From the IMG/VR virus record IMGVR_UViG_3300049259_000157, positions 1 through 51,346 of that record: a DNA stretch of 51,346 nt. One strand, given 5' to 3'. The stretch is from a virus. The translations under genes were made by a program, and so were the position numbers. The notes beneath the pieces were generated by a model. The model was not told the DNA's origin. It searched no databases and saw only the letters and a list, made by a program, of their open reading frames with translations. This document shows, piece after piece, positions 7,283-41,652 of the stretch (the first letter of the stretch is position 1; each line of letters starts with the position of its first letter).

Positions 7283-8620
7283 ATGAGCGACACCACAGAT
7301 CTCCAGGCAATCATCAACGCGATCACGTCGCCGACGTTCGTGCTCCGGCTCGACCCGGGTCGGACCTATGTCATAGAGCCCGGCCCCAACACCACACGCG
7401 GGCTGTACATCCCGCCGTCTGCGGCCGGCTTGCGGATCATCGGACGCGGCGCGGCGTTCTCCGTGGTCCGCGGCGTTCCTGCCGCGTTCAACACCATCGT
7501 GGTCGATGCGCCAGGGGTCGTCGTCTGCGACCTCGACCTCGAAGGCGGCGTCCAGCCGGATGGTACAGGACACCGGCACGGCGTATTCGTCAGCGCGCCA
7601 TCGGTGACGCTTGAGCGGGTGTCAGCGTCGCTGCACGAAGGCGATGGAATCGTCCTCTACACGGGTGCCGATGACGCACAGATCAGGTCGTGCAAAGCGC
7701 GCGGCAACAAGCGAAACGGACTGACGTTCAACGGTGCGACGCGGCACGTAACCGTACAGGACAGCGAATTCGCGGCGAACGCCGCTCAGCAGGTCGACTT
7801 CGAGATCGGAGTGGGCGCACCCGAGTCGGCCGGGGTGGTCGACTCGACGCTCCTGCGCTGCACGATGAGTCCAGGGCCCAGCCAGGACTACGTGTTGACG
7901 CTCGGCGACCACGGCATGAACCAGCGCGTGCTCGACTGCGTCATCAACGGCGGCATCAAGATCGTCAACGGGACCGACATCGAGATCAGTCGGTGCAGAG
8001 GCGACAACGAGACCGCGAAGGCGATCGAGATCACCGGCGCGAGCGACAAGGTTCGCATCCTCGACAGCCAGTTCTCGGCGCTCGTCGCCAAGCGCGCGAT
8101 CTGGATCGCCGGCGGGACGGGCGGGGTTCCGGGCCGAATCGAGCTTAACGATCTCGGGCTGTCAGTGCACGACGTCGGCGCCTGCGCGATCGAGATCAAC
8201 GGTGCGGCCGACACCGTGATCTCGCAATGCCAGCTGCAGGGCGCCGGCGTTCCGGTGGCCGGCCGCGGCGGCGTGATGATCCGTTCGACGCTCATGGATC
8301 ACCCGATGGAGACGGTCAAGATCGACTCGACCTCGTTCGACTCGTTCGGCGAGGCCGGGATCGTAGTCGGAGGGATTACCGCGGTCGACAGCGCCGGCGT
8401 GCGCCACTACTCGCAGCTTCGCCGGCTCGTCGTGTCGGAGTGCGACTTCGGCAACAACCCGGGCGACGCCTCGCTGACCACCGCGATCCTCGCCGACCGG
8501 ACCTTGCTGCAGCTGGTGATCGGCCCTGACATCACGCTCGAGGGCGGCGTCACGCTGGGCGGCGTGCCATCCATCGGCGCCGGATGGGCGACAACCACGG
8601 TTGTTGTGCCGCAGCCGTAG
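7283..8620 (+). CDS. Right-handed parallel beta-helix repeat protein
   Basis: The 445-residue protein shows the periodic short-strand pattern of pectate-lyase-like beta-helices: GLRIIGRG, NTIVVDAPGVVVCDLDLEGG, VTLERVSASLHEGDGIVLYTG, VTVQDSEFAANAAQQVDFEIG, TDIEISRCRGDNETAKAIEITG, TVISQCQLQGAG and LVIGPDITLEGGVTLGG. The N-terminus (LDPGRTYVIEPG) resembles the capping start of Pectate_lyase_3-type folds. No signal peptide and no catalytic residues can be assigned. In phages this fold is usual for tail spikes and depolymerases, yet this gene sits behind the helicase and far from the tail genes. ACAGGAACCC precedes the ATG. It converges on the next gene with one base between the stops. Confidence 0.75.
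   Translation: MSDTTDLQAIINAITSPTFVLRLDPGRTYVIEPGPNTTRGLYIPPSAAGLRIIGRGAAFSVVRGVPAAFNTIVVDAPGVVVCDLDLEGGVQPDGTGHRHGVFVSAPSVTLERVSASLHEGDGIVLYTGADDAQIRSCKARGNKRNGLTFNGATRHVTVQDSEFAANAAQQVDFEIGVGAPESAGVVDSTLLRCTMSPGPSQDYVLTLGDHGMNQRVLDCVINGGIKIVNGTDIEISRCRGDNETAKAIEITGASDKVRILDSQFSALVAKRAIWIAGGTGGVPGRIELNDLGLSVHDVGACAIEINGAADTVISQCQLQGAGVPVAGRGGVMIRSTLMDHPMETVKIDSTSFDSFGEAGIVVGGITAVDSAGVRHYSQLRRLVVSECDFGNNPGDASLTTAILADRTLLQLVIGPDITLEGGVTLGGVPSIGAGWATTTVVVPQP
8591..8604. terminator. Short hairpin at convergent gene ends
   Basis: ACAACC and GGTTGT form six-base arms with a two-base loop inside the last codons of the beta-helix gene. It is the only symmetrical element near this convergent junction, where the two stops are one base apart. 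No T-tract follows on either strand, so a terminator role is weakly supported. Confidence 0.25.
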
Positions 8621-8621
8621 G

Positions 8622-8801
8622 CTACAGCCCGCCCCGGCCGTAGCCGCGCACCGGGCCGCGCGCGGGGTTGATCGTCCGGTAGTCCTCGAGCTCGAGGCGC
8701 TTGCGGTCGCGGATGATCTCGATCTGGCGCTGGGTCGGGCGGCCCGGGAACGGCGAGACCCAGAGCGCGGTATTCGCGGGCGGCGGCATTGCAGAGGCCA
8801 T
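8622..8801 (-). CDS. Small hypothetical protein, 59 aa
   Basis: This frame runs from ATG 8801 to TAG at 8622 and is too short for most ORF cut-offs. The product starts MASAMPPPANTALW, continues with TQRQIEIIRDRKRLELEDYR, a charged helix, and ends in a Gly/Arg-rich tail (RGPVRGYGRGGL). A second in-frame ATG lies at 8789. The balanced composition and clean fit between a hairpin and a convergent stop support a real gene. No function can be given. Confidence 0.6.
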   Translation of the reverse strand: MASAMPPPANTALWVSPFPGRPTQRQIEIIRDRKRLELEDYRTINPARGPVRGYGRGGL

Positions 8802-8826: not shown

Positions 8827-8861
8827 GGGGGCCGGGATCGATGAGCGCGATCCCGGCCCCC
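8827..8861 (-). terminator. Strong 14-bp stem-loop downstream of the receiver gene
   Basis: Fourteen-base perfect arms (8827-8840 and 8848-8861, GC-rich, containing CCGGGATCG) enclose a seven-base loop. The element lies 24 bases past the stop of the receiver-domain gene in the direction of its transcription. There is no T-tract, as is common in GC-rich genomes, so it may slow or attenuate transcription into the 59-residue gene. Confidence 0.6.
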
Positions 8862-8884: not shown

Positions 8885-9301
8885 CTAGACCATAGGGGCA
8901 TGCAGGATCGACGTCAAGTAGGCGCGTGACTCCGACGTCGGCGCACCCTTGACGAGAACCTGGGCGTGCATCGCGCCGGCGAGCTCCTCCGCCCCGGTCA
9001 GGAACACGAAGCGCGCGGCGAGCGCCGGCTGCTGGCGCCTGATCCACAGCAGGATGTTGCCGCCATTCTCGCTGGGATCGGCGAGCTCGAAGTCTGAGAC
9101 GACCAGGTCGACCTTGATGCAGGCCAGCACTGCGATCGCTGAGGACGCCGTGTCCCTGGCGACCACGTACGAGCCGGGGAAGCAGCGCGCGAGCCAGCGC
9201 TTGTGGGCCTCGAGCAGCCGGGGGTCATCGTCGACGACGAGGATGGTGTGCTGGATGATCTTACGGGTGACGTCCTGCGATTCGGTGGGATGCATGCCCA
9301 T
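8885..9301 (-). CDS. Stand-alone CheY-like response-regulator receiver protein
   Basis: All receiver-domain landmarks are present in 138 residues: the acidic pocket VVDDDP (D24-D26), the phosphoacceptor aspartate D70 in LVVSDFEL, the switch threonine T102 in VFLTGAEE, and the conserved lysine K118 in VLVKGA. No output domain follows. A phosphorylated aspartate would normally be supplied by a host histidine kinase, so the protein could tap or titrate a host phosphorelay. The ATG at 9295 is an alternative start. The leader contains CACAGGAC eight bases before the ATG. It is transcribed divergently from an RHH-like gene across a gap with a duplicated operator-like element. Receiver domains are rare in phage genomes. 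Confidence 0.85.
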   Translation of the reverse strand: MGMHPTESQDVTRKIIQHTILVVDDDPRLLEAHKRWLARCFPGSYVVARDTASSAIAVLACIKVDLVVSDFELADPSENGGNILLWIRRQQPALAARFVFLTGAEELAGAMHAQVLVKGAPTSESRAYLTSILHAPMV

Positions 9302-9352
9302 GATGTTCGTCCTGTGCGCAGAGTTGTTGGGGTACGGACCGGGTAGCTCGGC

Positions 9353-9397
9353 ACATGTTTGACATGTCTTCCAACCGGTGGCAGGATGTTTGACATG
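9353..9397. promoter_or_regulatory. Duplicated operator-like element between divergent genes
   Basis: The 12-mer ATGTTTGACATG occurs at 9355-9366 and again at 9386-9397, 31 bases apart, about three helical turns. The first copy extends to a palindrome, ACATGT-TTG-ACATGT at 9353-9367. The second copy overlaps the start codon of the RHH-like gene. Two in-phase palindromic sites in a divergent promoter region suggest binding of a dimeric repressor, most simply the RHH-like protein itself. Confidence 0.6.
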
Positions 9398-9844
9398 GCA
9401 ACCAAAAAACCAAAGCCCAAGTCACGTAGGCCGGCAACCAGGCGCGATCCCGCGCCGGCGCGCCGCGGCCCAGCACCGCGCGCGGAGTCGGCTCGGACGG
9501 ACAGCCCGATCGGACTGCGCATGAACCCCGCCGAGATGGCCCACGTGCGCGCCGCGCTGGCCCAGCTCAACGAAGAGACCGGGCTCGTGCTGACGCCCGG
9601 AGCCTACGCCAAGCACGCTACGCTGTCGTATCGCAGGTTCCGGCTGATGGAACAGGCGATCCGTGCGTTGCGCGCCGACATGCGGCGGCCGCTCGATAAC
9701 GTCACGATCGATCGCCTCGACGCGATCATCTACACGCTGTCAGATGGCGTCGCGCCCAGCAAGCTGGCTCCGGACGAGGCCGCTACCGAGCAGGCCGCGA
9801 TCGCCGAGCACGAGGTCGCGGCGGATGTCGGGGGTGAGTCGTGA
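9395..9844 (+). CDS. Ribbon-helix-helix-like DNA-binding protein
   Basis: ATG 9395 has AGGA eight bases upstream and gives 149 residues. The first 37 are strongly basic and Pro/Arg-rich. Residues about 39-80 fit a ribbon-helix-helix: strand IGLRM, helix NPAEMAHVRAALAQLN, turn and helix TPGAYAKHATL. A second helical part (RLMEQAIRALRADM and DRLDAIIYTLSDG) and an acidic end follow. The operator-like repeats just upstream, one over the start codon, suggest autoregulation. The assignment rests on secondary-structure pattern, not on a recognised family. The stop overlaps the next GTG. Confidence 0.6.
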   Translation: MATKKPKPKSRRPATRRDPAPARRGPAPRAESARTDSPIGLRMNPAEMAHVRAALAQLNEETGLVLTPGAYAKHATLSYRRFRLMEQAIRALRADMRRPLDNVTIDRLDAIIYTLSDGVAPSKLAPDEAATEQAAIAEHEVAADVGGES

Positions 9845-17606: not shown

Positions 17607-19574
17607 TCAAAGCGCACCCATCGGCGTCCAGTCGGTCAGGCTATCCGGGTCGTCGGCGATGAACGACCTGGTCGTGATGAACGCGGCATCCGTAAATGCG
17701 TGCTTGATCGCGGCGATAACCGCGTTTGACGCTGCGACATCTGGGTGATGGCCTAGCGCGCTATCCAGCATGACGTACGCGACCAGCGGGCGACCCCAGA
17801 ACGGGATGTAGGCGATCGCCTCGTCCGAGTCGACCGTGGCCGTGCCGGCAAGCGCGGCGATCGACCGTGCGTAGATGCCGCACCACTGGGCCCCTGTGGG
17901 GTGCGCGATGTCGCCGCCGATTTGGGTATACCCGGTGCGCGCGTCGGTCTGGGAGAACTCGATGTGCCACACGCCATCGGTCTCGGTCTGGAAGAGGTGC
18001 AGCCACAGCTGCGACGGGTTTCCCGATACGAATCCGAGCAGGTTCACCGCGCCAGTGCTGACCTGGCTGACGAACGTCTCGCGGAACAGCTGGAAGCTCC
18101 CCGCGGTATCGCGTAGCCCAAACAGGATATAATTCCCGGCCACGCGATCGCCAAAGAACACGCCGGTCTCGAGCCCGCTTTGCGGCGTATTCATCATGAT
18201 CTTCGCGATCATGTGAGACTGCTTGGCATCGGCGCCCACTGGCATCTGCATGTAATGCCAATCCTTCACCACTCCGTCGAACGAATAAGATCCAGCGGGG
18301 AGCGATGCGCGGGCCTGTCCCGCAACCGACGTCCAGCTGCCGGCCGGGGTGACGTCCCACCTCTGAAGCAAGATCTCGTCGAACCCGTCGGAGATCTCGT
18401 TGGAGAATGAGATGTATTGCAGCTCGGTGAGATCGAGCGTGTCGACGATCCCGCCGATGGCGTCCTCGATTCCGGGGATCGAGCAGCCGCGGCGCTGCCG
18501 AAGGCGGGCCAGGACACGCTGTCGCAGCGTGTCGATGCTGTCGCCGGCGACGACCGGCGGCCGGGTCACGGTGATCCAGTCCTGTAGCACCTGGCCGTAC
18601 GCGCGGCCTGGCAGGAAGTTGGCGCGCATCTCCTCGATCTTGGCGCCGGCGAACCCGAGCGCATGGCCCGCCATACGGTTGTCGAGCTGCACATCGCTGT
18701 CGAGCTTGTCGCTGATCGGGAACCCCAGGTCGTGCGACTCGATGAACAGCTGGGTCCCGAGCGGCTGGTACCGGGTGACTCGAAGCCAGGTGGCTTCGAT
18801 CTCCTCCTGGCAGAGCTCGCGCGGAACGACCATGAGCTCATCGATCACGCCGGCGTAGAGCCGGCGGAACCCGTCGGTCGGGTCGCCGAAGATGAACCTC
18901 GACCCGACGAACGAGAAGTCCGTGGTTGACCCGGCGATCGAGCCGTCACTGCTGGCGACCTCTCCGAGCAGCAGATCTCCGATGTAGTAACGGAGCACGA
19001 CGGAAGTCGGCGAGATCCACCGGCGCGTCGCCGTGAGGATCGTAAACTGGCCCGGCGGCAGCGTGAACTCGGCGCCGGTCTGGATGTGGAGCGCGCCGGC
19101 GGTGTCGTTCCAGAGCATCTCGAGCCGCCCGGTTGCAGACGGCGCATCGACCACCGAGATCTGCAGGCCGTAGCAGGCGCCCGTGCCAGCGTCGTTGAAG
19201 ATACCGCGGACCATGATGGTGCCAGCCTCGCCGTAGGCACCCTGGGTGACAGCGTCCCACGACACGACGGCCTGGATGCTGACGTCGCCGGTCAGCATCG
19301 TCGAGCCCGGAACGCGATCCTTGGCGACGATCGCGGTGCTCGCGCTTGGCGCGAACTTGCGGCCGCGGCCGCACGCGGCGCCGACGATCGGCGGCATCGT
19401 CACCGGCGGGTCGTTGAGCGGAGCTATCAGATCCTGCAGGCCGCCGGCGGAGTCGCGCGGTCGCTCGACGTCGTCGCGCTCGAGGAACCGCAGCATGATC
19501 ACGGCCTGGTCGTCGGTCAGCCCAATCGCGCCCGGCGGGTCGTACGAGAACGTGCGGTCAGCGCCCGGCGCCAT
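17607..19574 (-). CDS. Mu gp48/DUF2313-like baseplate protein with LamG-like domains
   Basis: The 655-residue protein starts with a short lead (AIGLTDDQAVIMLRFLERDD). A LamG/concanavalin-like beta-sandwich follows at about 90-260 (VSIQAVVSWDAVTQGAYGEAG, FRRLYAGVIDELMVVPREL). The region at about 325-395 resembles DUF2313/YmfQ tail proteins (DTLRQRVLARLRQRRGCSIPGIEDAIGGIVD). A second beta-rich part follows (MIAKIMMNTPQSGLETGVFFGD, VWHIEFSQTDARTGYTQIG). Directly after the BaseplateJ gene it holds the gp48 position of Mu. LamG-type domains probably serve carbohydrate binding or tip assembly; the fusion is unusual for this position. Confidence 0.7.
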   Translation of the reverse strand: MAPGADRTFSYDPPGAIGLTDDQAVIMLRFLERDDVERPRDSAGGLQDLIAPLNDPPVTMPPIVGAACGRGRKFAPSASTAIVAKDRVPGSTMLTGDVSIQAVVSWDAVTQGAYGEAGTIMVRGIFNDAGTGACYGLQISVVDAPSATGRLEMLWNDTAGALHIQTGAEFTLPPGQFTILTATRRWISPTSVVLRYYIGDLLLGEVASSDGSIAGSTTDFSFVGSRFIFGDPTDGFRRLYAGVIDELMVVPRELCQEEIEATWLRVTRYQPLGTQLFIESHDLGFPISDKLDSDVQLDNRMAGHALGFAGAKIEEMRANFLPGRAYGQVLQDWITVTRPPVVAGDSIDTLRQRVLARLRQRRGCSIPGIEDAIGGIVDTLDLTELQYISFSNEISDGFDEILLQRWDVTPAGSWTSVAGQARASLPAGSYSFDGVVKDWHYMQMPVGADAKQSHMIAKIMMNTPQSGLETGVFFGDRVAGNYILFGLRDTAGSFQLFRETFVSQVSTGAVNLLGFVSGNPSQLWLHLFQTETDGVWHIEFSQTDARTGYTQIGGDIAHPTGAQWCGIYARSIAALAGTATVDSDEAIAYIPFWGRPLVAYVMLDSALGHHPDVAASNAVIAAIKHAFTDAAFITTRSFIADDPDSLTDWTPMGAL

Positions 19575-21103
19575 TACGCCTTCCTCACGATCACCACGCC
19601 GGGCGTCACGTAGTGGATCTGGCCGCTGCTCGGGAACGGATCATCGAGGGGCTCGTAGTCGGCCGCCGGCGACAGGATGAGGGCGTTGCGCACGCCCTGC
19701 TTGTACGCCGCGATCATCGACACCGTCGCCAGGTTGATGCCGCCGATCCAGGGCCCGTATTTGCCACCGGGGTTGGCGCTGCCGATGCCGTTGGCGAGCA
19801 CGTCGAGGCCGATGATGCTCTGCCCTGTCGGCACGGTGGGCGCCGCACTGCTTGCCGGAAGGGGGAGCTGGCCGCGGCCCGCGTAGACGATCTGACCGTT
19901 CAAATGGGCCACGATCGCGTCGCGGATCGGAGTGACCAGCGGGCCACCCGAATAGACCTTGTCGGTGGCCGCAGGCGCGTTGACCGGGGCGACCTCGAGA
20001 ACAACCTTGTCGGTGCCGCTGATCGCCTGAATGCGAAACGGCCGCCCGTCCTGCGCACTCGCAACGCCGTCAAGGATCAGGTCGTGGCCGGCGCGTAGTG
20101 ACGCGGGAAGCGGTGTGGTGAGTCGGAGCTCGCGGGTGCTCGGCGTCCAGGACAGCACGGTCAGCCCCCCGCTGTCCTCGAAGTTGAAGTTGAACGCGGC
20201 GATCCCGTTCGGCGTCAGAACGATCTCGACGCGCTGCGGATCGGCGACGGTGGCCAGCACGCGCAACGCGCCGCCCGTTCCCGAGATCGTGAACGGCGCC
20301 TTTGTCCTGATGTACGCGGCGACGGCGTCGCGATCATCCGACGTCAGCGAGCGGTCGGTGCCCGATCCGTTGTAGAACGCGACGACGTCGATCGAGCCCC
20401 GGCCGGCTCGGTTGGGGTAGGCGTATGCCGAGCTCACCGAGGGCAGCGACTCGATCGCCCAGCGCACGAAGTCGTCCTGGTTGCCGCCGGACGGTGTCTG
20501 AGAAAACGTGTCGAGGAACCGGGCGCGGTAGCCGCCGAACGGCTCGACGTCGAAGCCATCCTCGTCCATGTCGAGCTGCAGGATCACGCCCGACTCGATG
20601 CCGTCGGGCAGCGCCAGGAACCTCAGCGTCGATCCGGCGTCGAGTCGGGTCTGGGATCCGGTGTCGATCGCGGCAACGTCGACATCGACGAACGAGTCGG
20701 GGTCGACGCCTACGGTCCCGGGGATCGTCGCGCCGTTCGGTAGCTCGAAGAGCAGGCCGGTCTCGTCGTGGCGGAGCTGCGCGCCGGCGTCGGCTGCCTT
20801 GCCGGCGGCGCCACGGACCCTCGCGGCGGCCGACTTGCGCGCCGGCGTTGCGCCCTTGCGCTGGACGCCGATGGTGCTGCCCCAATCGTTGATCGGCTTG
20901 CCGTCGCCCGCGGTGAGCGGATGGAGGTCGCGTTGCGCCGAGTCGACGTGGGCGTGCAGTTGGGTCTCGGCGCCCGCCATGTAGCTCGCGCGGCGCCCGT
21001 GGTAGCTCTGCGTCGACGAGAAATTGAGCGTGGGAAATAGCGCCTGGCCGAGGTTGATCAGGAAGTCTCGGGCCTGGGCGAACGTGGGGATCGAGAACGG
21101 CAT
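19574..21103 (-). CDS. Baseplate J-like protein (Mu gp47 type)
   Basis: The 509-residue protein shows the BaseplateJ pattern: an N-terminal part with FSIPTFAQARDFLINLGQALFP, PINDWGSTIGVQRKGATPA and GGLLFELPNGATIPG-like segment, the central DFVRWAIESLPSVSSAYAYPNRAGRGSIDVVAFYN with an aromatic/acidic pattern, and a C-terminal region with VTPIRDAIVAHLN and LATVSMIAAYKQGVRNA. It forms wedges of the contractile-tail baseplate. An inserted beta-rich region (about 310-370) is not typical. The stop shares a base with the downstream start. Confidence 0.8.
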   Translation of the reverse strand: MPFSIPTFAQARDFLINLGQALFPTLNFSSTQSYHGRRASYMAGAETQLHAHVDSAQRDLHPLTAGDGKPINDWGSTIGVQRKGATPARKSAAARVRGAAGKAADAGAQLRHDETGLLFELPNGATIPGTVGVDPDSFVDVDVAAIDTGSQTRLDAGSTLRFLALPDGIESGVILQLDMDEDGFDVEPFGGYRARFLDTFSQTPSGGNQDDFVRWAIESLPSVSSAYAYPNRAGRGSIDVVAFYNGSGTDRSLTSDDRDAVAAYIRTKAPFTISGTGGALRVLATVADPQRVEIVLTPNGIAAFNFNFEDSGGLTVLSWTPSTRELRLTTPLPASLRAGHDLILDGVASAQDGRPFRIQAISGTDKVVLEVAPVNAPAATDKVYSGGPLVTPIRDAIVAHLNGQIVYAGRGQLPLPASSAAPTVPTGQSIIGLDVLANGIGSANPGGKYGPWIGGINLATVSMIAAYKQGVRNALILSPAADYEPLDDPFPSSGQIHYVTPGVVIVRKA

Positions 21104-23925: not shown

Positions 23926-25124
23926 CGGAATCCGCCGGACTGCCGCGCCGGCATGACGTAGTCTCCGGGGTCGAGCCACCCCTGGGTCGCGATGTCGTTG
24001 AGCTGCGCGATCTGCCTCGCCCGATCCTGCGCCGCGGCGCCGCCGTAGACGCGCGCGGCGAGCGGCAGAAGCGACGTCTGGTGCAGGACGCGCATCGTGA
24101 ACAGCCGCGGCGTATCGGCGGTCGCGGCCTGGGCCGCCGAGCGGATCGCCGCGCCCAGCTGGATCGCCGCGACGAACGCCGGCCAGAGCAGCAGATCCTG
24201 TTCCAGCTGGCCGACGCCGATCATCAGGTTGATGCTGTCGCTGATTCGCGCGGCGTCGGTGAGCACCTTGCGCGGCGTCGGCGGGTCGCCTGTGTTCCAC
24301 GATGCCGCTGACAGCCGAGCGTCCATGGTGAGCGCGGCGCTCGCGTAGGCGAACGCGAAGTTGCCAGACGCCTGGGTCAAGCCGGCGGTGATCCCCGCGG
24401 CGACAGCGGCGCTGGCGCGCGCGTAGGCGCCGGCGAACGCCATGGCCGAGGCGTCGGCGGCCGCGGAGGCGCTGGCCGCGGCGGTTGCGGTCGCTGAGGC
24501 CGAGGCGTTCGCGCTCGCTGACGCCGAGAAGTTCGCGCTCACGCTGACGTCGGCGTTGACATCGACGTCGAACGCCACGTCGATGCTCTGCTGCACGGGC
24601 TGCGAGAAATCGATCTTGCCCGGTACGCCCGGGTCAAACCCGTGGTCGATGTTCGCGAGCTCCTGGTCGAGCGCGTCGGCCGCCGCCGAGACCGCGCCCT
24701 CGCCGGCGGCCGCGCTCGTGCCGATCCCGGCGGGCTGCACCACGACGTCGGAGTCGCCGTCGAACACGAATTCGATCTCGGCCGTGGTCACCGAGCTCTC
24801 ATCGATGGCCGGGTCGAAGTCGCCGACCAGGGCGAAGAACGCGCCGTCCATCGGGTGAATGAACAGACGCCGCTCGTGCCGGCGCGCGGCGTCGCGCAGC
24901 GCTCGATACGCCTGCGCCCCGGTCACCGTGGCGTCGGGGAAGTCGTCGAACTGGACCGTCAGCTTGGTGCGGTTCGCCTTGTCGCCGCGGTCCTGCACGG
25001 GGTGCGCGTTGCCCGATGCCAGATCGTGGACCACGAGCGTGTTGCCTGCGTTCCAGTTGCACTTGGACGCGTAGAGGCGGATGTCGCCCCACGCGCAGAG
25101 GTAGAGCTCTCCGGGGTTCGGCAT
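23922..25124 (-). CDS. Mu N (gp43)-like DNA-circulation/tail protein
   Basis: The 400-residue protein begins with a short lead and DRGDKANRTKLTVQFDDFPDATVTGAQAYRALRDAARRHERRLFIHPMDG, a pattern of the N-terminal DNA_circ_N domain, including the strand FFALVGDFDPAIDESSVTTAEIEFVFDG. Residues about 190-240 are an Ala/Ser/Asn repeat (SANFSASASANASASATATA), forming a long flexible or beta-solenoid-like segment. The C-terminal part is helical (INLMIGVGQLEQDLLLWPAFVAAIQLG). It lies between tape measure and P, as in Mu. Confidence 0.7.
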   Translation of the reverse strand: MPNPGELYLCAWGDIRLYASKCNWNAGNTLVVHDLASGNAHPVQDRGDKANRTKLTVQFDDFPDATVTGAQAYRALRDAARRHERRLFIHPMDGAFFALVGDFDPAIDESSVTTAEIEFVFDGDSDVVVQPAGIGTSAAAGEGAVSAAADALDQELANIDHGFDPGVPGKIDFSQPVQQSIDVAFDVDVNADVSVSANFSASASANASASATATAAASASAAADASAMAFAGAYARASAAVAAGITAGLTQASGNFAFAYASAALTMDARLSAASWNTGDPPTPRKVLTDAARISDSINLMIGVGQLEQDLLLWPAFVAAIQLGAAIRSAAQAATADTPRLFTMRVLHQTSLLPLAARVYGGAAAQDRARQIAQLNDIATQGWLDPGDYVMPARQSGGFR

Positions 25125-26950
25125 CAGGGCTTTCTGCGGCGGTCGGTCGAGTTATGGACCGCGGTGGCAACGTGCTTGCCATCAACGTGTAGCTGCGGCG
25201 CCGGAGCGGCGACCATGGCCTCCGACACCGCCTTGGCGATCGCCGGCGCCATGACCGCGCTCACAGCCTGGTTGAACTCCCATATCGCGCTCACCGATGC
25301 CTTGCGTTGGGCGGCGTCGACGATGTCGCTCGCGTGTTGCTGCTGGAGCTCCTTGATCAACTTGTCTCGGCGATCGAGCGACATCCCGGTGTCCTCGAGA
25401 TACTTGCTTCCGATCGACCTGCGCCCCGCCACCCCGGCCTCTCCGGGGAACGGGAACGCGGCGGCGATCGCCAGGCGGTCTGACTTCTGCGTCGTCTTGT
25501 CGTCGACGATCGCGTCCTTGATGTCGTTGTACGCCTTTACCTTGGCCTCGTGGTCGCGCTGGATCTTCTGAACTGCTTCGAGCTCGCTGATGCCGTTGTT
25601 CTTGGCGGTCGCCTTGATGTCGCCGATCGACGGCTGCGCCAGCTTGCCGAGGTACGGCCCCGAGAATGTCCCTCGCACCTTTTTGCCGATCTCGTAGATG
25701 CCGCCCATGATGTCGGCGAACTTGCCGACCATCTCGACGAGCGGGCCGACCTTGTCGGTGAGGCCCTCGATCGCGGACACGAACGCCTCGATACGCTCTG
25801 GCGTCACGGCCGCCGCTATCGAGTTGCGCATCTTCTCGAACGCGATGTCGATCCGGCCAGCGTCGCTCTCGGTGACCGTCGCCAGATCCTTCGGGATGAC
25901 GCCGTTGACCATGCCGCTCGCCACGAGATCCTTCAACCTCTTGACGTTGCCGAGCAGCAGCTCGACGGTGCGCCAGCCTTCCTGACGGCCGAATGCTTTC
26001 TTGAGGAGCTCGGGATCTTTCATCAGCTTGCTCTTGCCGATGTCTTCGAGGATTTCGCCGAATGCGCGTGCGTGCTTGACGCCGTTGGCGTCCGTCACGT
26101 TGACCTTGACGCCTGCCTTTTCGAACCGGCTCGCGTAGGTGCGCAGGCCGACGAGCACGCGCTGTAGCCCGGTACCGGCCTCGCTGGCCGAGTTGAACCC
26201 GTCGCGCGTGATCTGGAATGCCGCGCCGATCTCGACCGCGCCCTTGCGCCCCTGGGCTCCGTCGAACTTCGAGAACAACGGCAGCAGGCCGGCGAACTCG
26301 GCCGCCATTTGCTTCGCCTCGATGCCGCCGTCCTTGGCCTGGTTGATGAGGCCGCCGATGGTGTTCTCCATCTCGCCGTCCGCCACATGCATCGAGCGAG
26401 TCAGCTGGTACATCATGCCGGCCAGATCGCTGGCCTCGGACTTTGACGCCCGCGCGGCGCGCGCCAGGATGTTCATCTTGTCGATCGTGAACTCCTCGGC
26501 GCCGGCCAGGTCGGAATATGCCTTGCCGCCGGCGAGCACCGAGTCTGCGCCGACCCCGATGTCGGCCGCGGTCTGGCGCGAGGCGCGCGCGATCTCCTTG
26601 AGCTGCAGCGGCGTCGACCTGGCGGCGATGCCGAACTCGACCAGCCTCTTGTTGAAGTCCCACACCTTCTTGCCCTCGTCGACGATCGTGTCCATGCCTC
26701 GCACCGCGAGGTTGCCGACCAGCGCGCCGGCGGCGCGCTTGATGACCCCGGCCGGGGTCATGATGCCGGCGCCGGGCTTTCCACCCTTGCCGGCCGGCCC
26801 GAACATGTTCGGCGCCAGGTTCATCTTCGACAGCATGGCGCTCACGCCTTGCGCGAAGCCTGACACCATCGACAGCGCCCGCCGCAGGCCGAGCGGAAGC
26901 TGCGAGGAGTTCGCCGTGATCTGGATCTGTGCGGTTGTTCCGGGCGGCAT
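25124..26950 (-). CDS. Tail tape measure protein
   Basis: The 608-residue protein contains the TIGR01760-like core: VWDFNKRLVEFGIAARSTPLQLKEIARASRQTAADIGVGADSVL..., EASDLAGMMYQLTRSMHV, INQAKDGGIEAKQMAAEFAGLLPLF, GTGLQRVLVGLRTYASRF and KLMKDPELLKKAFGRQEGWRT. Long helices and no membrane helix follow. Tape measure length sets tail length; at roughly 0.15 nm per residue this suggests a tail near 90 nm, which is an estimate from the family rule. It sits after the frameshifted chaperone gene, as in tailed phages generally. Confidence 0.85.
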   Translation of the reverse strand: MPPGTTAQIQITANSSQLPLGLRRALSMVSGFAQGVSAMLSKMNLAPNMFGPAGKGGKPGAGIMTPAGVIKRAAGALVGNLAVRGMDTIVDEGKKVWDFNKRLVEFGIAARSTPLQLKEIARASRQTAADIGVGADSVLAGGKAYSDLAGAEEFTIDKMNILARAARASKSEASDLAGMMYQLTRSMHVADGEMENTIGGLINQAKDGGIEAKQMAAEFAGLLPLFSKFDGAQGRKGAVEIGAAFQITRDGFNSASEAGTGLQRVLVGLRTYASRFEKAGVKVNVTDANGVKHARAFGEILEDIGKSKLMKDPELLKKAFGRQEGWRTVELLLGNVKRLKDLVASGMVNGVIPKDLATVTESDAGRIDIAFEKMRNSIAAAVTPERIEAFVSAIEGLTDKVGPLVEMVGKFADIMGGIYEIGKKVRGTFSGPYLGKLAQPSIGDIKATAKNNGISELEAVQKIQRDHEAKVKAYNDIKDAIVDDKTTQKSDRLAIAAAFPFPGEAGVAGRRSIGSKYLEDTGMSLDRRDKLIKELQQQHASDIVDAAQRKASVSAIWEFNQAVSAVMAPAIAKAVSEAMVAAPAPQLHVDGKHVATAVHNSTDRRRKP

Positions 26951-28011: not shown

Positions 28012-29484
28012 TCACCCTCCGATCTGAATGTTGTGCACCCAGGCGATCTGGTGCAGGTTGACCGCTACGGTGTAGGGCAGCAGGACGTTGTTGCGGCCGC
28101 TGGTGATCGTGTCGTGCTCGACGATGATCCCCGCGATGTCGCTCTCGACCTTGGACTGCACCAATACCTTGGCGATGGCCTCGGAGCGCATGATCGCGGC
28201 CGCGAGATCCTTGATCTGGTCGTCGGTGTCTTCGTCCTGCGAGACGCCGTCGGGGTTCGAGTCAGCGCCGAGCGCGATCCCCGTGGCGATGTCGAGCTGG
28301 ATCGCCAGCGCGACGCCGGTTCGCGACACCGCGATGTCGCGATTCCGGGCATCTGGTTGACTCGAGGTCGTCGTCTTGGTGGTGACCAGGCGCTCGCACT
28401 TCGCCCGGTTCGCGGTGAACTGCCCGGTCGAGTCGACGACGCCGGTGTAGGCCGTGAGGCCAGCCAGGATCGCGGTCTCGACCTCCGGTCCGGTGTAGAC
28501 GGTCGCCGCGCCCGGTGGGAACAGCGGCACGGTGGCGCCGTCGTAGTTCGCGTTGGGCCGCTCGCGCGACCACACCAGCATAGCGGTGGCGGTCGCGATC
28601 TCGCCGGCGGTGTTGAGGCAGCCCTCGAACGACGAGACCACGACGGCCTGGTGGTTCGCCGCGGCCGCGAGCGACGTCGCGGTGCCGATCGACCCCATCT
28701 CGCCGATGAAGTACCACCCCCACGTCTTGGATGACGCCGACCAGCGCGCGGCGATGTCGAGGTTGATCTCCGTGATGTCGGCCGCCGCGTGGTTGGCGAT
28801 CGCGATCCCGTCGTAGCGCAGCGGCGAGAGCGCGTCGATCGCCGGCTGGCAGTCGGCGACCCCGGTGCCGGCGACGGTGTTGGCCGCGGTCGCGGTCAGG
28901 CCGGCGACCTGGAAGTCGACGGTGACCACGATGTCGGCGCCGTTGGCGCCCTTGGTGGCGTGGGTCAGCGTCACGACCGCGCCGGCGACCGTGACGATCA
29001 CGGGCAGGTTGGCCTGGTCAGCCTTGAGCACGCTGGCGATCGCGGCCGCGTTCGTCGCTGCGACGTCGCCCGACCGCACGCCGACCAGGTAGGTGCGGCC
29101 GGCAATCCGGATCTTCTGGTTGCCGTCGGTCGTCGCCGTTCCGGCGCAAGTGATCGTCTTGACGTTCGCGGCGCCGCCGCCCGGCTCCGCGATCGACACC
29201 ACCTTGACGCGCGGGCCGCGCCCGAACAGCACGTTGCATTCGTACGACTTGCGACACATCAGCGCCGCCTCGCTGCCGATCCCGAACAGCGCGTCAGTGG
29301 TCGCCGCGTCGGTCGCGTCGTAGATCGTGCCGAGCACGGCGGTGCCGCTTGACGCCTTCATCCCGACCAGCGCGATCGTCAGCGGGACCGCGGTCAGCGA
29401 CCCGCTCTGCAACAGGTAGTTGAAGACGTGGAACGTCTGCGGGCGGTTGAGGTTGTTCGGGACGTTGGTGACGACCTGGTTCAC
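28012..29484 (-). CDS. Contractile tail sheath protein (Mu L type)
   Basis: GTG start overlapping the upstream stop; 490 residues, close to Mu gpL. The N-terminus has a short strand arm, then an inserted beta-rich region (KTITCAGTATTDGNQKIRIAGRTYLVGVRSGD). The conserved half has INLDIAARWSASSKTWGWYFIGEMGS, VYTGPEVETAILAGLTAYTGVVDSTG, RDIAVSRTGVALAIQLDIATG, DQIKDLAAAIMRSEAIAKVLVQ and a terminal strand. These are marks of sheath proteins; its presence defines a myovirus-type tail. Confidence 0.85.
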   Translation of the reverse strand: MNQVVTNVPNNLNRPQTFHVFNYLLQSGSLTAVPLTIALVGMKASSGTAVLGTIYDATDAATTDALFGIGSEAALMCRKSYECNVLFGRGPRVKVVSIAEPGGGAANVKTITCAGTATTDGNQKIRIAGRTYLVGVRSGDVAATNAAAIASVLKADQANLPVIVTVAGAVVTLTHATKGANGADIVVTVDFQVAGLTATAANTVAGTGVADCQPAIDALSPLRYDGIAIANHAAADITEINLDIAARWSASSKTWGWYFIGEMGSIGTATSLAAAANHQAVVVSSFEGCLNTAGEIATATAMLVWSRERPNANYDGATVPLFPPGAATVYTGPEVETAILAGLTAYTGVVDSTGQFTANRAKCERLVTTKTTTSSQPDARNRDIAVSRTGVALAIQLDIATGIALGADSNPDGVSQDEDTDDQIKDLAAAIMRSEAIAKVLVQSKVESDIAGIIVEHDTITSGRNNVLLPYTVAVNLHQIAWVHNIQIGG

Positions 29485-32057: not shown

Positions 32058-33092
32058 TTACGAGCCGACGCCGCCGACGATCTCCTGCGGCAGGCCGTAC
32101 GCGGCGCCGTCCTCAGACTCGAGGCCGTACAGGTACTTTCCCGTGCGGAACACGAACTCCGAGTCGCTCGAGTCGACCGACATGAATTCGGGCAGGCGCT
32201 TGCGCTGCAGGATGACGGCCGTCGAGTCGACCGGGATCAGGAACCACTCGAGCCCGGTCAGCGTGACCGACTGGCCGAAGATGTTGTAGACCGCGCCGGC
32301 CGTGATCCATGACGTGCAGTCGGGGATCGCGGTCCCCTTGTCGAGGTTCGTCTGCGTCTGCCCGACGATATTCTCCTGCTGCAGCACCGAGCGGACAGCG
32401 GTTCGGTTTGCCGGGCCGTGGAGGAGTCGGAGCTGGCGACCAGCGATCGGGTTGATCGGCAGCCCGTACTCGTCCTTCATCTGCAGGAACAGGTTCCACG
32501 CCGTCGCGTAGGTCGTCGCCGAGAACGCGCCGGTGACCTTGTTGCTGTACTGCGTGCCCGTACCGTTGCCGAGGAACGTGTGATCGGTGTCGATCAAGTT
32601 CTGGCCGTCGTACGTCGTGCCGAGCGCCGTGCCCTGGATGCCGGCGATGAGCATCGCGATCACGATCTCGTCGAGGTGGCGGTCGTACGAGTCGCCGAGG
32701 CTGTTGATCTTCTCGCGGTACAGCCCGAACCGGTCGTTCAGGATGTCCCCTTTGGGGACCGTGATCGAGACCTCGTGCGGGCGCGTGATGATCGGCAGCG
32801 ACTCGGCGCGCAGCATCGAGACGACCTTGTCGCCCTCCCAGAGGCGCATCTTCGGAACGCTGTCGAGCCACAGCTGGCGATCGAGCAGGTTATCCGTGTC
32901 CATGACCTTGGCGTAAGTCTTCCAGAGCGCGCCCGGCCGGCCGAGCCGGTTGTTGAGCATCGTGCCGAAGCCGATGTAGGCGGCCTCGATCTTCGATGCA
33001 TCGGGAGAGCTTCCGCCCTGGCGGATGCTCGACAGCATGTCGGTGCCCGTGGGGGTCCATCCGGGGCCGCGAGCTAGGTAGGTGTGGCGCAT
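32058..33092 (-). CDS. Major capsid protein (Mu T type)
   Basis: The 344-residue product matches Mu gpT: GFGTMLNNRLGRPGALWKTYAKVMDTDNLLDRQLWLDSVPKM..., SITVPKGDILNDRFGLYREKINSLGDSYDRHLDEIVIAMLIAG, QNLIDTDHTFLG, then WNLFLQMKDEYGLPINPI and VRSVLQQENIVGQT. The C-terminal part has the strand series of the HK97-fold (WFLIPVDSTAVILQRKRLPEF). ATG 33092 is chosen over the frame back to 33206, which lies in the gap and the next gene. AAGGAA precedes the start. Confidence 0.85.
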   Translation of the reverse strand: MRHTYLARGPGWTPTGTDMLSSIRQGGSSPDASKIEAAYIGFGTMLNNRLGRPGALWKTYAKVMDTDNLLDRQLWLDSVPKMRLWEGDKVVSMLRAESLPIITRPHEVSITVPKGDILNDRFGLYREKINSLGDSYDRHLDEIVIAMLIAGIQGTALGTTYDGQNLIDTDHTFLGNGTGTQYSNKVTGAFSATTYATAWNLFLQMKDEYGLPINPIAGRQLRLLHGPANRTAVRSVLQQENIVGQTQTNLDKGTAIPDCTSWITAGAVYNIFGQSVTLTGLEWFLIPVDSTAVILQRKRLPEFMSVDSSDSEFVFRTGKYLYGLESEDGAAYGLPQEIVGGVGS

Positions 33093-33537: not shown

Positions 33538-34787
33538 TACGACACCCCGCCCTGCTCGCGCTGAAACGCGACCATATCCTCGACCTTGAGGCCGAGCTGG
33601 TCCGCCACGCGTTGGAAGTTGGGGTTGGCGCCTTCGGGCGCAGCGGTCGACGCCGGCGGCGCGCCGACGGTCTCGACCTGCAGGCGCTGGCCGACCGGCA
33701 CGATGACGTCGAGCTCAGCAAGCTCGGCCTCGAGCGCCACGATGCCGTCGCGCGCCGCGATCTTGCGTAGACGCTCCTCGCGCGGACTCGGAGTCGCCAG
33801 GCCGGCGGCGTCGCGGCCATGCTTGAGCTTGCCGGCCCGGTAGCAGCCCGACAGCAGGTCGTCGATCCGGATCTTCGACGCCGCGGCGAGCCCGGCGGTG
33901 GCCGCCGTGAGCTCCATCTGGGTGGTAGCGAGCTTGGATTCGGCGGTGAGGGCGCGCCGCTCCAGCGCCTCCACGGCTGCGACCGCCGACGGTTCGTCGG
34001 TCTCGGCCAGCGCGGTCAGTTTCAGAACTGCCGCAAGTCGGGGAAACGCCATCTGCTGTATCTCCTTGGGTGGTAGTTCGAGCTCGGCGGCCAGGTCCGC
34101 CCGGATATCGCTGATCCTGGTGCCTTTGACGGCCGGGACGTTGACGCCGGAGAGCTCCTTGCCCTCCCAGATACTGAACTCGTATTCGACGATCCGGGGC
34201 TTTCCGTCAACCTCCACGGTTTCCCCGAGCCAGCAGTGGCACGAATCGCGGCCTCGGACGTCGACGCCGTGCAGGGTGCAGAACACCGGGCCAAGCGGGA
34301 ACCAGCTGATCGAAAAGCTGTCGATCGTGCCGTCAATCACCGAGATCACGGCGTCGGGCTTGACGACGTTAAACGACATCTCGAACGCGTCGCGGCCCTT
34401 GTCGTCGACGAGCTTGCTGCCGAGGATCGTGCCCTTGCGAGAGCTTTGGGTGTGGGTGTCGTGATCCGTGAGGAACGGCAAGCCCTTGAATGTCGACGCG
34501 CTGGCGCCCAGATCTCCGCCGAGCCGCACAAATCGGCGGTTCGGCGCGCCGGGCGTCTTGCGTTGCCGGAACGTCAGCGCCGAGACCGCGAGCTCGACGT
34601 GCTTCCCGCCGCGAATCAACGTGATGAGCTCGGCGCGCTGGGCCTTGGCGTCCGGATCGGTCGCGCCGGCGCGCAGCTCGGTGAGCGCGCCGGCGCCGTC
34701 GACCTGGATGTTGCCGAGCCACGGGCTGATCTCGAAAGCCGATCGGCACGCCGTGGCGGTCAGGAGCGTAGGGTCCTTGAGCTTCAT
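33537..34787 (-). CDS. Head maturation protease fused to scaffold (Mu I type)
   Basis: The 416-residue protein has a prohead-protease domain in the first 220 residues: FKGLPFLTDHDTHTQSSRKGTILGSKLVDDKG with H in the DHDT motif, and IDGTIDSFSISWFPLGP with the serine, the two expected catalytic positions. Residues after 260 form the helical scaffold (AAVAAVEALERRALTAESKLATTQMELTAATAGLAAASK) and a terminal NFQRVADQLGLKVEDMVAFQREQGG element. Self-cleavage then frees scaffold pieces during head maturation. A cysteine group in the middle (CTLHGVDVRGRDSCHCWLG) may bind metal. Confidence 0.75.
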   Translation of the reverse strand: MKLKDPTLLTATACRSAFEISPWLGNIQVDGAGALTELRAGATDPDAKAQRAELITLIRGGKHVELAVSALTFRQRKTPGAPNRRFVRLGGDLGASASTFKGLPFLTDHDTHTQSSRKGTILGSKLVDDKGRDAFEMSFNVVKPDAVISVIDGTIDSFSISWFPLGPVFCTLHGVDVRGRDSCHCWLGETVEVDGKPRIVEYEFSIWEGKELSGVNVPAVKGTRISDIRADLAAELELPPKEIQQMAFPRLAAVLKLTALAETDEPSAVAAVEALERRALTAESKLATTQMELTAATAGLAAASKIRIDDLLSGCYRAGKLKHGRDAAGLATPSPREERLRKIAARDGIVALEAELAELDVIVPVGQRLQVETVGAPPASTAAPEGANPNFQRVADQLGLKVEDMVAFQREQGGVS

Positions 34788-36130
34788 TTCTTGTCCTCGC
34801 GGGCGTGGCCCGGTTCGGGCGGGGGCGTCGGCACGAAGATGATTCTGTCCTTGGGGTCGCCCACGGCCGGCTCTCGAAGGTTGAACTCCTCGCGGATTTG
34901 CGACGCGGAGATCGGCAGCGCCTGCCCGAGGATCTCGATCGCCTGCGCGCGCGCGAGCTCGTCGCGCGTCAGCTTGATCTTGAGCATCGGCGGGGCCGCC
35001 TTGTCGAACCCGTTCCACGCGATGAACGTGCGGCCGATGTCCCGCACGAACATCTCTTCGACGCACTTCGCGTCGTGGCGCTTCATCTTGTAGGCGCGGC
35101 TCTCGTGGACGGTGGCCGCGTTGTAGCTGCCAGCGCCGGTCGAGCTGACGTCGGTGTTGAGCGATCCGCCAGTGATGAGCTTCGTCATCATCGACTCGGC
35201 GATCTGCATGATCGTCGGCCAGATCGTCGAGGCGTCGCCGCCGCGAGCCGTCTCCTTGATCACGAGCTCGGTCAGCGACGACAGCACCGCGTAGCCGTCT
35301 TGGCCGATCGAGCGCACCGAGTCCTCGAGCGCGTCGCGCGATTTGCCGCTCGCGCCTTCCTCGTAGTAGCCGATCGCGAGGGGCAGGCCGAACATGTCGG
35401 CGAACACCTGGAAGTCCTTGAACCCGGCGAGCGCGAAGAACGCCCATGGCGCGCAGCTGCGCATGAGGCCGGCCGCGTACGGGTTCCGGAACCGGTTCCT
35501 CGAGATCGCCCACAGCCCCGGAACGAGATCGACGAGCTCAAACCTCGAGCTGTTGCCGTCGATCAGCATGATCTGGTCGGCCATGTCGGAGCGTGGTGCG
35601 CCGAACCGTCGAGCCGCCGGGTTCACGAATCGAGTCGGCACCACGGCGCCGTCGACGTAATCCCACTCCATGTTGGTGCACGCGAACCCGTTCGGGACTG
35701 CGGTCAGCTGGTGCCCGAGGAACTCGCGAAACTGCAGCTGGTTCTGCAGGCTGTCGTTGAGGATCGCCGCGGCCATGACAGACGGCTTGTCGGTGCGCCC
35801 AGGTGGCGGGATCACGACCCAGTCGCAGCCGGCGACGTCCTCGTTGCGGTCGTTGAGCAAGCCGCGGAGCTCGGCGTGGCGCTCGACCAGGCCGTCGAAC
35901 AGGTCGAACTGCTTCGTCGGCTGCCCGTTCTCGGCCTGGCGGTAGTAGCTAAACAGCGACTCGATCGTCAGGCCCTGCTCGGGGTGGGAGGAGTAGGTTT
36001 CCATCCCGCGTGGGTTCGGGGCGACCACCGATCGCCGGGTCGTCGGCAGTGGAATCGGTCGGCCGTTCTCGTCCAGTATCGTCGGCGCCGGCTGGCGCAG
36101 CTTCGGCCGGGTCGCAAGAGCGTTCGTCAC
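34784..36130 (-). CDS. Portal protein (Mu gp29, DUF935 type)
   Basis: The 448-residue protein matches DUF935 portal proteins: QFDLFDGLVERHAELRGLLNDRNEDVAGCDWVVIPPP, ENAAILNDSLQNQLQFREFLGHQLTAVPNGFACTNMEWD, WAISRNRFRNPYAAGLMRSCAPWAFFALAGFKDFQVFADMFGLPLAIGYYEEGASGKSRDALEDSVRSIGQDGYAVLSS-type segments and GGSLNTDVSSTGAGSYNAATVHE. It forms the ring through which DNA enters. Overlaps join it to terminase and protease genes. Mu gpF (gp30) is missing from its usual place after the portal. Confidence 0.85.
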   Translation of the reverse strand: MTNALATRPKLRQPAPTILDENGRPIPLPTTRRSVVAPNPRGMETYSSHPEQGLTIESLFSYYRQAENGQPTKQFDLFDGLVERHAELRGLLNDRNEDVAGCDWVVIPPPGRTDKPSVMAAAILNDSLQNQLQFREFLGHQLTAVPNGFACTNMEWDYVDGAVVPTRFVNPAARRFGAPRSDMADQIMLIDGNSSRFELVDLVPGLWAISRNRFRNPYAAGLMRSCAPWAFFALAGFKDFQVFADMFGLPLAIGYYEEGASGKSRDALEDSVRSIGQDGYAVLSSLTELVIKETARGGDASTIWPTIMQIAESMMTKLITGGSLNTDVSSTGAGSYNAATVHESRAYKMKRHDAKCVEEMFVRDIGRTFIAWNGFDKAAPPMLKIKLTRDELARAQAIEILGQALPISASQIREEFNLREPAVGDPKDRIIFVPTPPPEPGHAREDKK

Positions 36131-37923
36131 AGGCCCCGATTTCGAGTCCCCCGGCGCCCTGGCGCGCGCGGGCGGTCGGGGGCCGCGCCTAGACCGCGCT
36201 CTGCGGGGGCGGGCTTGTCCAGGGCCTTCTGGATGGCATCCACCCCGCCGGGTTTGTCAGATCTGAAGATTCTTGGGAAGAGCCTAACGATCGGATACGA
36301 AACGGCGTCTCCCAGGTGGGCGTGCTCCTGGATGCGGCTCGGTCGGCCGTGGACCGTCTTCCAGCCGCGGATCGCCGCGCAGCACTTCGGGGCGAGCTCG
36401 GGATCGGCGAACAGCCGGCGCTTCTTGTCGGCCGCCTGGATCAGCGAGGTGAACGAGCGGATCCGGTCGAGCACGTCGGGGTTCTTGCGCCGGAACCGGC
36501 GCGATGGAGGCCGGATGTTGGTGTATCCGCCGTCGCGGATGATGTCCCACGAGCCCTTGCCTTTCCATTCTGGCGGCGGGCTGTCGGCCTGGCGCCGGCG
36601 CGAATGCTGATACTCCGCGGTGGCGTCGCTGACGATGATCGTCGTCTCGTTGCTAAATCCGCGATCGCGAAGCAGGGCCGTCCAGTGCTCCTCGTCGCCG
36701 GCTTCGACAATCGCCTCACCTACGATCCAGGCGATCACGTTGTCGTGGTTCGCAACCTCGCCGGGCTTGGCATAGAACCGATAGACCGGGCCGCCGATGT
36801 GCGGATGCACCTGGACGTCGAGGCCGAGCAGATCATCGAACCCCTCGCCCTCTTCCTCGATCTCGAGGAATTCTGCCGTGACGTCGAGCAGGCCGGTCAC
36901 CGGGCATGGCAGCTGTCGGCCCTCGGCGTCGCGCGTCGGCCGCGGCATCGGCCGCTCGCACTCGATCCGCGTCCAGTTGTAGGCGACCGCGTCGATCGCT
37001 GCGCGGAACTCGCCGAGTACCTCGATCGAAAACGTCCGCTCGTCGAGCTCCTTGCGCATGGCGAGGAGCGCGCGGCGGTTGATATGAGGGTTGTCGAGCG
37101 GGTTGAAGTGTTTGTAGACGGCCTCGCGGCGCTTCGCGATGCAGTCGGCCGCGAAGTCGTTGACCCAATCCTGATCGCCGGCCTCGACCGGCGGGTTCGC
37201 GCAGACCAGCACCAGCCCCGCCTTGTCGCTGATGGCGCCACGGGCCACCACGTACACGCGGTGCTTCATCTTCTGGCCCTCGTTGAGCCAGATGAGGTGC
37301 GCTTCGCCCTCCTTGATCGCGTCGGTGTCGGCGCCGATGTACGCGCTCTTGAGGTCGATGATCGAGCCGTTGATCAGCTCGTATTTCTGCGCCGTCGGGC
37401 GACGCGCGAGCCAGTTCGGCGACAGCAACCTGCTGAGGTAGCGCTTCACCTCGGCGTCTTTTTTCTCGCTCGGCGAGACCGGCCACACGATCCCCTCGGG
37501 GAACATCACCGCGTACATCGCGCAGCAGACCGCGGCGATCCACGTCTTGCCGCCGCGGCGCCCGCCGGCGAACAGCGCCGAGTACGCTTCGTCGTCGATC
37601 GACTCGACCGTCGAGATCGCGCCCTCGAGCTCCTCCTGGGTCAACTCGGGGGGGTCGTCGCGGCGCCCCGCGTGGACGCCGAGCCAGTCGATGAACCACT
37701 TGATCGCCGGGATCTGGCCGGGGTGCGGCCGAACCACAACGCCTTGCTCAGGCTCGTCCTCCGTGAACTCCTCGGCGCGCTTGTCCCATCGCCCGCCGAC
37801 CCATCCAAGGATCTCGCCATCGAATTCGACGTCGATCCGCATATCGACCAGCGCCGCGCCGGTCTGGCGCTCGCGCCGGCGCCGCTCGAGCGCCTCCCCC
37901 TCGGTCGCGCGCGCCTTACCCAT
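36127..37923 (-). CDS. terL: Terminase large subunit
   Basis: The 598-residue protein has Walker A SALFAGGRRGGKTWIA (K126), a Walker B-like AHLIWLNEGQKM with the glutamate, and motif III-like LVLVCANPPVEAG. The nuclease half has LLGLDVQVHPHIGGPVYRFY, ETTIIVSDATAEYQHSRR and a late HLGDAVSYPIVRLFPR. These are the ATPase and RNase-H-like nuclease parts of TerL, which cuts and pumps DNA into heads. It is longer than Mu gp28 and has an N-terminal extension with an acidic stretch. It lies directly before the portal. Confidence 0.85.
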   Translation of the reverse strand: MGKARATEGEALERRRRERQTGAALVDMRIDVEFDGEILGWVGGRWDKRAEEFTEDEPEQGVVVRPHPGQIPAIKWFIDWLGVHAGRRDDPPELTQEELEGAISTVESIDDEAYSALFAGGRRGGKTWIAAVCCAMYAVMFPEGIVWPVSPSEKKDAEVKRYLSRLLSPNWLARRPTAQKYELINGSIIDLKSAYIGADTDAIKEGEAHLIWLNEGQKMKHRVYVVARGAISDKAGLVLVCANPPVEAGDQDWVNDFAADCIAKRREAVYKHFNPLDNPHINRRALLAMRKELDERTFSIEVLGEFRAAIDAVAYNWTRIECERPMPRPTRDAEGRQLPCPVTGLLDVTAEFLEIEEEGEGFDDLLGLDVQVHPHIGGPVYRFYAKPGEVANHDNVIAWIVGEAIVEAGDEEHWTALLRDRGFSNETTIIVSDATAEYQHSRRRQADSPPPEWKGKGSWDIIRDGGYTNIRPPSRRFRRKNPDVLDRIRSFTSLIQAADKKRRLFADPELAPKCCAAIRGWKTVHGRPSRIQEHAHLGDAVSYPIVRLFPRIFRSDKPGGVDAIQKALDKPAPAERGLGAAPDRPRAPGRRGTRNRGL

Positions 37924-41359: not shown

Positions 41360-41652
41360 GGGCTTTGTCCTGTATCATGGTCGACAGGACGCTCGCAACC
41401 TTCTTCGACGTGGCGATCGTGGCTTCGACGGGTGTGTCCTGTATTGCCGCAGATGCCGCAGTGGTAGACCGTGGGTCGGCGATGTCGCGCTGCGAGCAGC
41501 GCGTTCCTGCGCTTTCGCTGCCGATCGAGCTTTTGGTTGGCGCAGCGCGCGCACAGCATGATGTTGGGCGCTCGCGTAGACCCGCATTGCGTGCACACGC
41601 CAGCGGTGCGGCGCGCTGCCATCAACGCGGCGAACCGCTCTTTCCAGTTCAC
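41356..41652 (-). CDS. Zinc-ribbon protein, 98 aa
   Basis: GTG start overlapping the XRE-regulator stop. VCTQCGSTR with LCARCANQK forms one zinc ribbon, and HCGICGNTGHTRRSHDRH forms a second site of CCHH or zinc-knuckle type (C-x2-C-x4-H). Between them is a basic helix (QKLDRQRKRRNALLAARHRR). The knuckle pattern is common in single-strand nucleic-acid binding. It is coupled to the multi-zinc-ribbon gene. Confidence 0.65.
   Translation of the reverse strand: MNWKERFAALMAARRTAGVCTQCGSTRAPNIMLCARCANQKLDRQRKRRNALLAARHRRPTVYHCGICGNTGHTRRSHDRHVEEGCERPVDHDTGQSP

Follow-up and report, generated by a model that had tools for sequence, protein, structure and literature searches.

The receiver gene and its surroundings

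The window analysed here, 51,346 bases with a GC content of 67%, is an entire IMG/VR virus record of environmental origin. On its minus strand, positions 8885–9301 hold an ATG-initiated gene for a stand-alone receiver of 138 amino acids, an assignment that draws on Pfam, sequence alignments, AlphaFold2, Foldseek and the coding signature. The ORF has a coding log-odds of 51 under a codon model for which the long ORFs of the phage itself served as training set, and its GC content by codon position (0.65/0.44/0.90) matches the rest of the phage. A Shine-Dalgarno-like AGGA (9310–9313, minus strand) is found 8 nt 5' of the start codon. On the other side, 3' of the stop, lies a perfect 14-bp hairpin (8827–8861, minus strand) that folds better than shuffled sequences (z −3.3); since it carries no U-run, we infer a terminator here only as a candidate. 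Past the hairpin, on the same strand, is a 59-aa ORF with no family match (8622–8801, minus strand). The divergent neighbour (9395–9844, plus strand) encodes 149 aa, likewise with no family match, and its start is preceded by AGGA at the same spacing as that of the receiver gene. The receiver gene is also adjoined by a gene for a right-handed beta-helix protein (7283–8620; Pfam Beta_helix, E 8.6e-11), which sits in the replication region, remote from the tail genes, and whose product is possibly a receptor- or polysaccharide-acting protein.

Profile searches of the record identified a large terminase (36127–37923), portal (34784–36130), major head protein (32058–33038), tail sheath (28012–29484), tape measure (25124–26950) and baseplate wedge (19574–21103), together with a DNA primase, a DnaB-like helicase, a RecT-like protein and an exonuclease. 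With structural and packaging genes on one record, the window is that of a contractile-tailed phage, and these genes, along with the phage-typical codon usage of the ORF, bear out the view of the initial annotation that the receiver is phage-encoded. Neither a tyrosine- nor a serine-type integrase was found in the window, a weak phage-repressor match lies at 41649–42182, and a prophage search with an alignment of the sheath returned no match. Matches of the portal protein in a phage collection are just 26–27% identical and uninformative for the host. On a 17.8-kb viral contig, IMGVR_UViG_3300049004_000049, the portal and sheath proteins are both 100% identical to those of the window phage; the contig contains no receiver match, but is itself only a fragment. 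Elsewhere in the window, a 655-aa tail-region protein (17607–19574) matches Laminin_G_3 and a Mu Gp48-like family weakly and in each case under the cut-off, and a 513-aa ORF with a strong coding signature (47184–48725) is unmatched in Pfam, PHROGs and NCBIfam.

Sequence and predicted fold of the receiver

The ORF matches Pfam Response_reg (PF00072) with E 1.4e-7 and 32.1 bits, above the curated cut-off of 30.2, and is the sole match to this family in the record (31.8 bits in the genome-wide search). All of the residues expected of a receiver are present in the alignments: the acidic pair D24/D25, the phospho-acceptor D70, T102 and K118 align with CheY D12, D13, D57, T87 and K109, respectively, in agreement with the claim of the initial annotation that the set is intact. 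Its further suggestion of structure prediction as a check also returned a receiver. An AlphaFold2 model built on an 11-sequence alignment (the window receiver plus ten receivers from viral contigs) reached pLDDT 88.3 and pTM 0.81 and replaced a single-sequence model with pLDDT 42. It shows the five-stranded beta-alpha order of a receiver, with strands at residues 19–23, 45–49, 66–70, 98–101 and 114–116 and helices between them. Foldseek returned 340 matches in the PDB at E<=0.001, and almost all of the best 50 of these 340 are receiver domains or proteins that contain one, with TM scores to the model of about 0.6–0.74. AlphaFold2 was given an alignment made up of receivers, so the predicted fold supports the assignment but is not independent of it. 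The chain begins with an 18-residue N-terminal tail and stops directly after helix 5, leaving no output domain, so that the protein is stand-alone as originally described. We conclude that ORF 8885–9301 is confirmed as a real, intact, phage-borne stand-alone receiver with the appearance of a phosphorylatable protein.

The receiver departs from CheY in several respects, of which the short helix 4, the KG in place of KP and two insertions had escaped the initial annotation. Helix 4 spans residues 105–110 in the model (~6 residues), where confidence is lowest within the folded core (pLDDT 75–82 by block), and the spacing between the conserved Thr and Lys is 16 compared with 22 in CheY. The conserved Lys is followed by Gly rather than the Pro of CheY, the position of CheY Y106 is occupied by Val115, and there are two insertions of two residues each, one following strand 3 and the other preceding strand 4.

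Repeats in the intergenic gap

The receiver gene and the rightward gene are separated by 93 bp (9302–9394). A first ATGTTTGACATG repeat (9355–9366, plus strand) falls within ACATG-TTTGA-CATGT, a putative operator-like element with 5-bp inverted arms, and a second (9386–9397, plus strand) overlaps the Shine-Dalgarno sequence and start of the rightward gene. These two 12-bp copies, 31 bp apart, are the only exact ones in the window, on which ground a wider operator regulon was rejected. Simulated sequence yields about one pair of closely placed 12-mers per window, whereas about eight separate pairs were observed, so that the ATGTTTGACATG pair alone is weak evidence. The gap had been described in the initial annotation as a divergent promoter region with paired operators that implies separate regulation of the receiver gene. 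The repeats are real, but the operator claim is overstated: promoter function, operator function and separate regulation are not established, as a scan confined to sigma-70-like promoters found none in 9302–9394. Paired operators are thus a reasonable but unproven reading of what are, from their sequence, putative sites.

Kinase partners and homologues

No HATPase_c, the ATPase domain by which kinases are recognised, was detected in the record, even at E<=1. A kinase partner within the same phage was rejected on this basis, which leaves a kinase of the host or a small-molecule donor as the source of any phosphate. Close homologues of the receiver were found neither in GenBank phages nor in IMG/VR or GTDB genomes. 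Plasmid matches are ordinary receivers at about 30–35% identity (best E 1e-4), and the best partial matches in NCBIfam include the myxobacterial hybrid kinases EspC and EspA, a weak hint that a hybrid-kinase-type receiver may have been the source of the gene. Neither a generic receiver alignment nor a self-written myxobacterial-style receiver query recovered viral loci. Among matches to receivers in the GenBank phage collection, for which one of the queries was a FleR fragment with an added generic tail, most were evidently host DNA. Judged by their annotated housekeeping response regulators, many phage-labelled records in that collection (OR84xxxx, MT83xxxx, CAKLQ...) look like host DNA, and its signalling-gene counts are unreliable.

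Lone receivers in other viruses

As sequence searches were blind, IMG/VR was scanned with degenerate DNA patterns for the motif pair DD(D/E)P ... D-L-V-x-x-D and the matches were translated; many receivers would escape these patterns, and the resulting counts are lower bounds. Six other groups of lone receivers were recovered on nine viral contigs: L009/L014 (91 and 81 kb), L012 (155 kb), L020/L024 (37 and 13 kb), L039 (24 kb), L040/L045 (67 and 53 kb) and L049 (76 kb). The scan also returned hybrid kinases (L016, L025, L044 and the broken L047) and a fragment at a contig end (L010). HATPase_c was absent from all nine contigs, and five of the nine have terminase matches. The L020/L024 receiver ORF (1878–2255 on L024) belongs to a co-directional run just upstream of the terminase and portal, which on L024 identifies it as a genuine phage gene. 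The L040 and L045 receivers differ by 36 synonymous and 3 nonsynonymous codons, a ratio that indicates purifying selection and hence maintenance of the gene in that pair; L040 (7764–8153) and its L045 counterpart also have QKNKP around the conserved Lys, where KPF is usual. In L009 and L014 alike, the large terminase is matched at two separate places, one of them with an in-frame TGA, and the L020/L024 terminase match has two TGA; frame edges, mixtures of prophages or recoding might account for this.

Several PHROGs families of unknown function match the lone receivers of the viral contigs, BFVD includes CheY-like proteins from tailed phages, and a CheY-like gene, CDS-30, has been published for Alteromonas phage V22 (PMC7289586). 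Viral auxiliary genes are further reported to include those of two-component systems, with enrichment in temperate viral communities (PMC9636769). The statement of the initial annotation that receivers are rare in phages is therefore too strong: they are uncommon, yet they recur in unrelated viruses, as the six other viral groups, V22 and BFVD attest. From the PHROGs families, the BFVD proteins and the V22 gene, lone phage receivers are a known kind, for none of which has a function been shown, and the window gene adds a member.

Possible roles during infection

The reading that we tentatively favour is that the protein is a functional single-domain response regulator, phosphorylated at D70 by the host, with a chief role as phosphate sink or decoy. 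In its favour are the intact catalytic residues and receiver fold, the absence of HATPase_c from the window and from the nine other contigs, and the recurrence of lone receivers in six other viral groups, with maintenance by selection in one pair. D70 would accept phosphate from a histidine kinase of the host, from several such kinases or from an HPt protein, and the receiver would compete for it with the host's own response regulators, a competition that may damp or redirect a host pathway during infection. The redirection or blocking of a host pathway proposed in the initial annotation is to that extent plausible. In many response regulators the alpha4-beta5-alpha5 face is the output surface. 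The shortened helix 4 of the model would alter this face, which we take to fit a sink better than an output switch. A precedent for a phosphate sink exists in LovK/LovR, and one for a hub in MrrA, which receives phosphate from at least six kinases (PMC5964349). Among phage proteins, PIT4 binds to several histidine kinases of its host (PMC10714779). It is this trimming of the usual output face, with the hub and sink roles documented for soluble single-domain regulators, that leads us to prefer a sink or decoy. The sequence itself cannot decide between a sink or decoy, a switch and a direct inhibitor; a receiver acting as a switch would look identical.

Somewhat less probable, though a serious contender, is a switch in which the receiver, once phosphorylated, would bind to a specific target of the host or the phage, for instance in motility, envelope polysaccharide or the replication machinery, as CheY and other single-domain response regulators do. 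All of the switch residues are intact, and host single-domain regulators work in this manner: one is reported to bind a phosphoglycosyl transferase and thereby activate the synthesis of exopolysaccharide (PMC12802240). The CheY Y106 position and the Pro after the conserved Lys are, however, replaced by Val115 and Gly, and helix 4, which forms part of the usual output face, is cut to about six residues in the model.

We consider it unlikely that the receiver is a phosphorylation-independent inhibitor that docks on a host kinase and blocks its autophosphorylation. Osp, a single-domain receiver-like protein, inhibits CckA directly in this way and stays active with D51 mutated (PMC9430884), and PIT4 demonstrates that phage proteins can target kinases (PMC10714779). 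Osp, however, is without the acidic pair and the Lys (PMC9430884). The window receiver keeps both, and with them the whole catalytic set, which suggests selection for phosphorylation chemistry and makes an Osp-like mode of action less likely.

A passenger, that is a recently acquired fragment of a host receiver (such as the C-terminal receiver of a hybrid kinase) with no role in infection, is more doubtful still. The lack of a homologue in phage, viral or genome collections would be in keeping with such an origin, as would the partial matches to EspC and EspA in NCBIfam and the similarly short helix 4 of a hybrid kinase on a viral contig. Set against these, the gene has its own start, ribosome-binding site and hairpin end and a codon usage typical of the phage, and an active site intact at about 30% identity to any known receiver would be unexpected in a decaying fragment.

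A cREC-type divergent receiver, processing cyclic phosphates or NAD-derived nucleotides in place of aspartyl phosphate, is highly improbable: such proteins are known in jumbo phages (PMC7824862) and there is a weak match to Pfam cREC_REC (PF20274; 15.6 bits, E 0.027), but this score is far under the 27-bit cut-off of the family, on which ground the identity was rejected, whereas Response_reg passes its own, and family scans, which covered all but some small ORFs, recognised no NAD- or ADP-ribose-processing gene beside the receiver.

Returning to the sink or decoy, we would extend it with more reserve to a general proposal, namely that lone, kinase-free receivers form a recurrent class of phage host-takeover proteins acting on host kinases as phosphate sinks, of which the window receiver, its helix-4 face trimmed, would be a pure decoy, accepting phosphate but passing on no signal. 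If lone phage receivers do drain or rewire host two-component signalling, then the simplest part of such a system would be enough to seize control of stress responses, motility or the envelope. As recently as 2023, the report on PIT4 stated that direct interaction with a component of a two-component system had not previously been described for any phage protein (PMC10714779). The class is easily tested, as its members are small soluble proteins with a single Asp, suited to standard phosphotransfer assays.

Comparison with known systems

The jumbo-phage cREC proteins share with the window protein a receiver-like fold in a phage setting, but two-component systems are said never to contain them (PMC7824862). 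Of the hybrid histidine kinases with C-terminal receivers, EspC, EspA and NahK/ErcS are among the best NCBIfam partial matches, and L016, from a viral contig, resembles the window receiver in its short helix 4 and Thr-Lys spacing; the receivers of all of these are fused to kinases, whereas the window receiver is free. The lone receivers recovered from IMG/VR resemble it in being stand-alone ORFs with no kinase in the contig, but are 14–31% identical to it, and in most of them the helix 4 region is longer and the conserved Lys is followed by Pro. A counterpart from an isolated myovirus is V22 CDS-30 (UniProt A0A6C0R1B8), a receiver-fold protein of 149 aa whose gene is assigned to the class II auxiliary genes, under signalling (PMC7289586); V22 has a marine host, the two proteins are 18% identical over the fold alignment and the function of both is predicted. 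Among cellular proteins, single-domain response regulators of the CheY, Spo0F, DivK and MrrA types differ from the window receiver in that it is phage-borne, has no cognate kinase on its record and is about 30% identical or less, but they have the same architecture: one receiver domain, the full catalytic set and no output domain.
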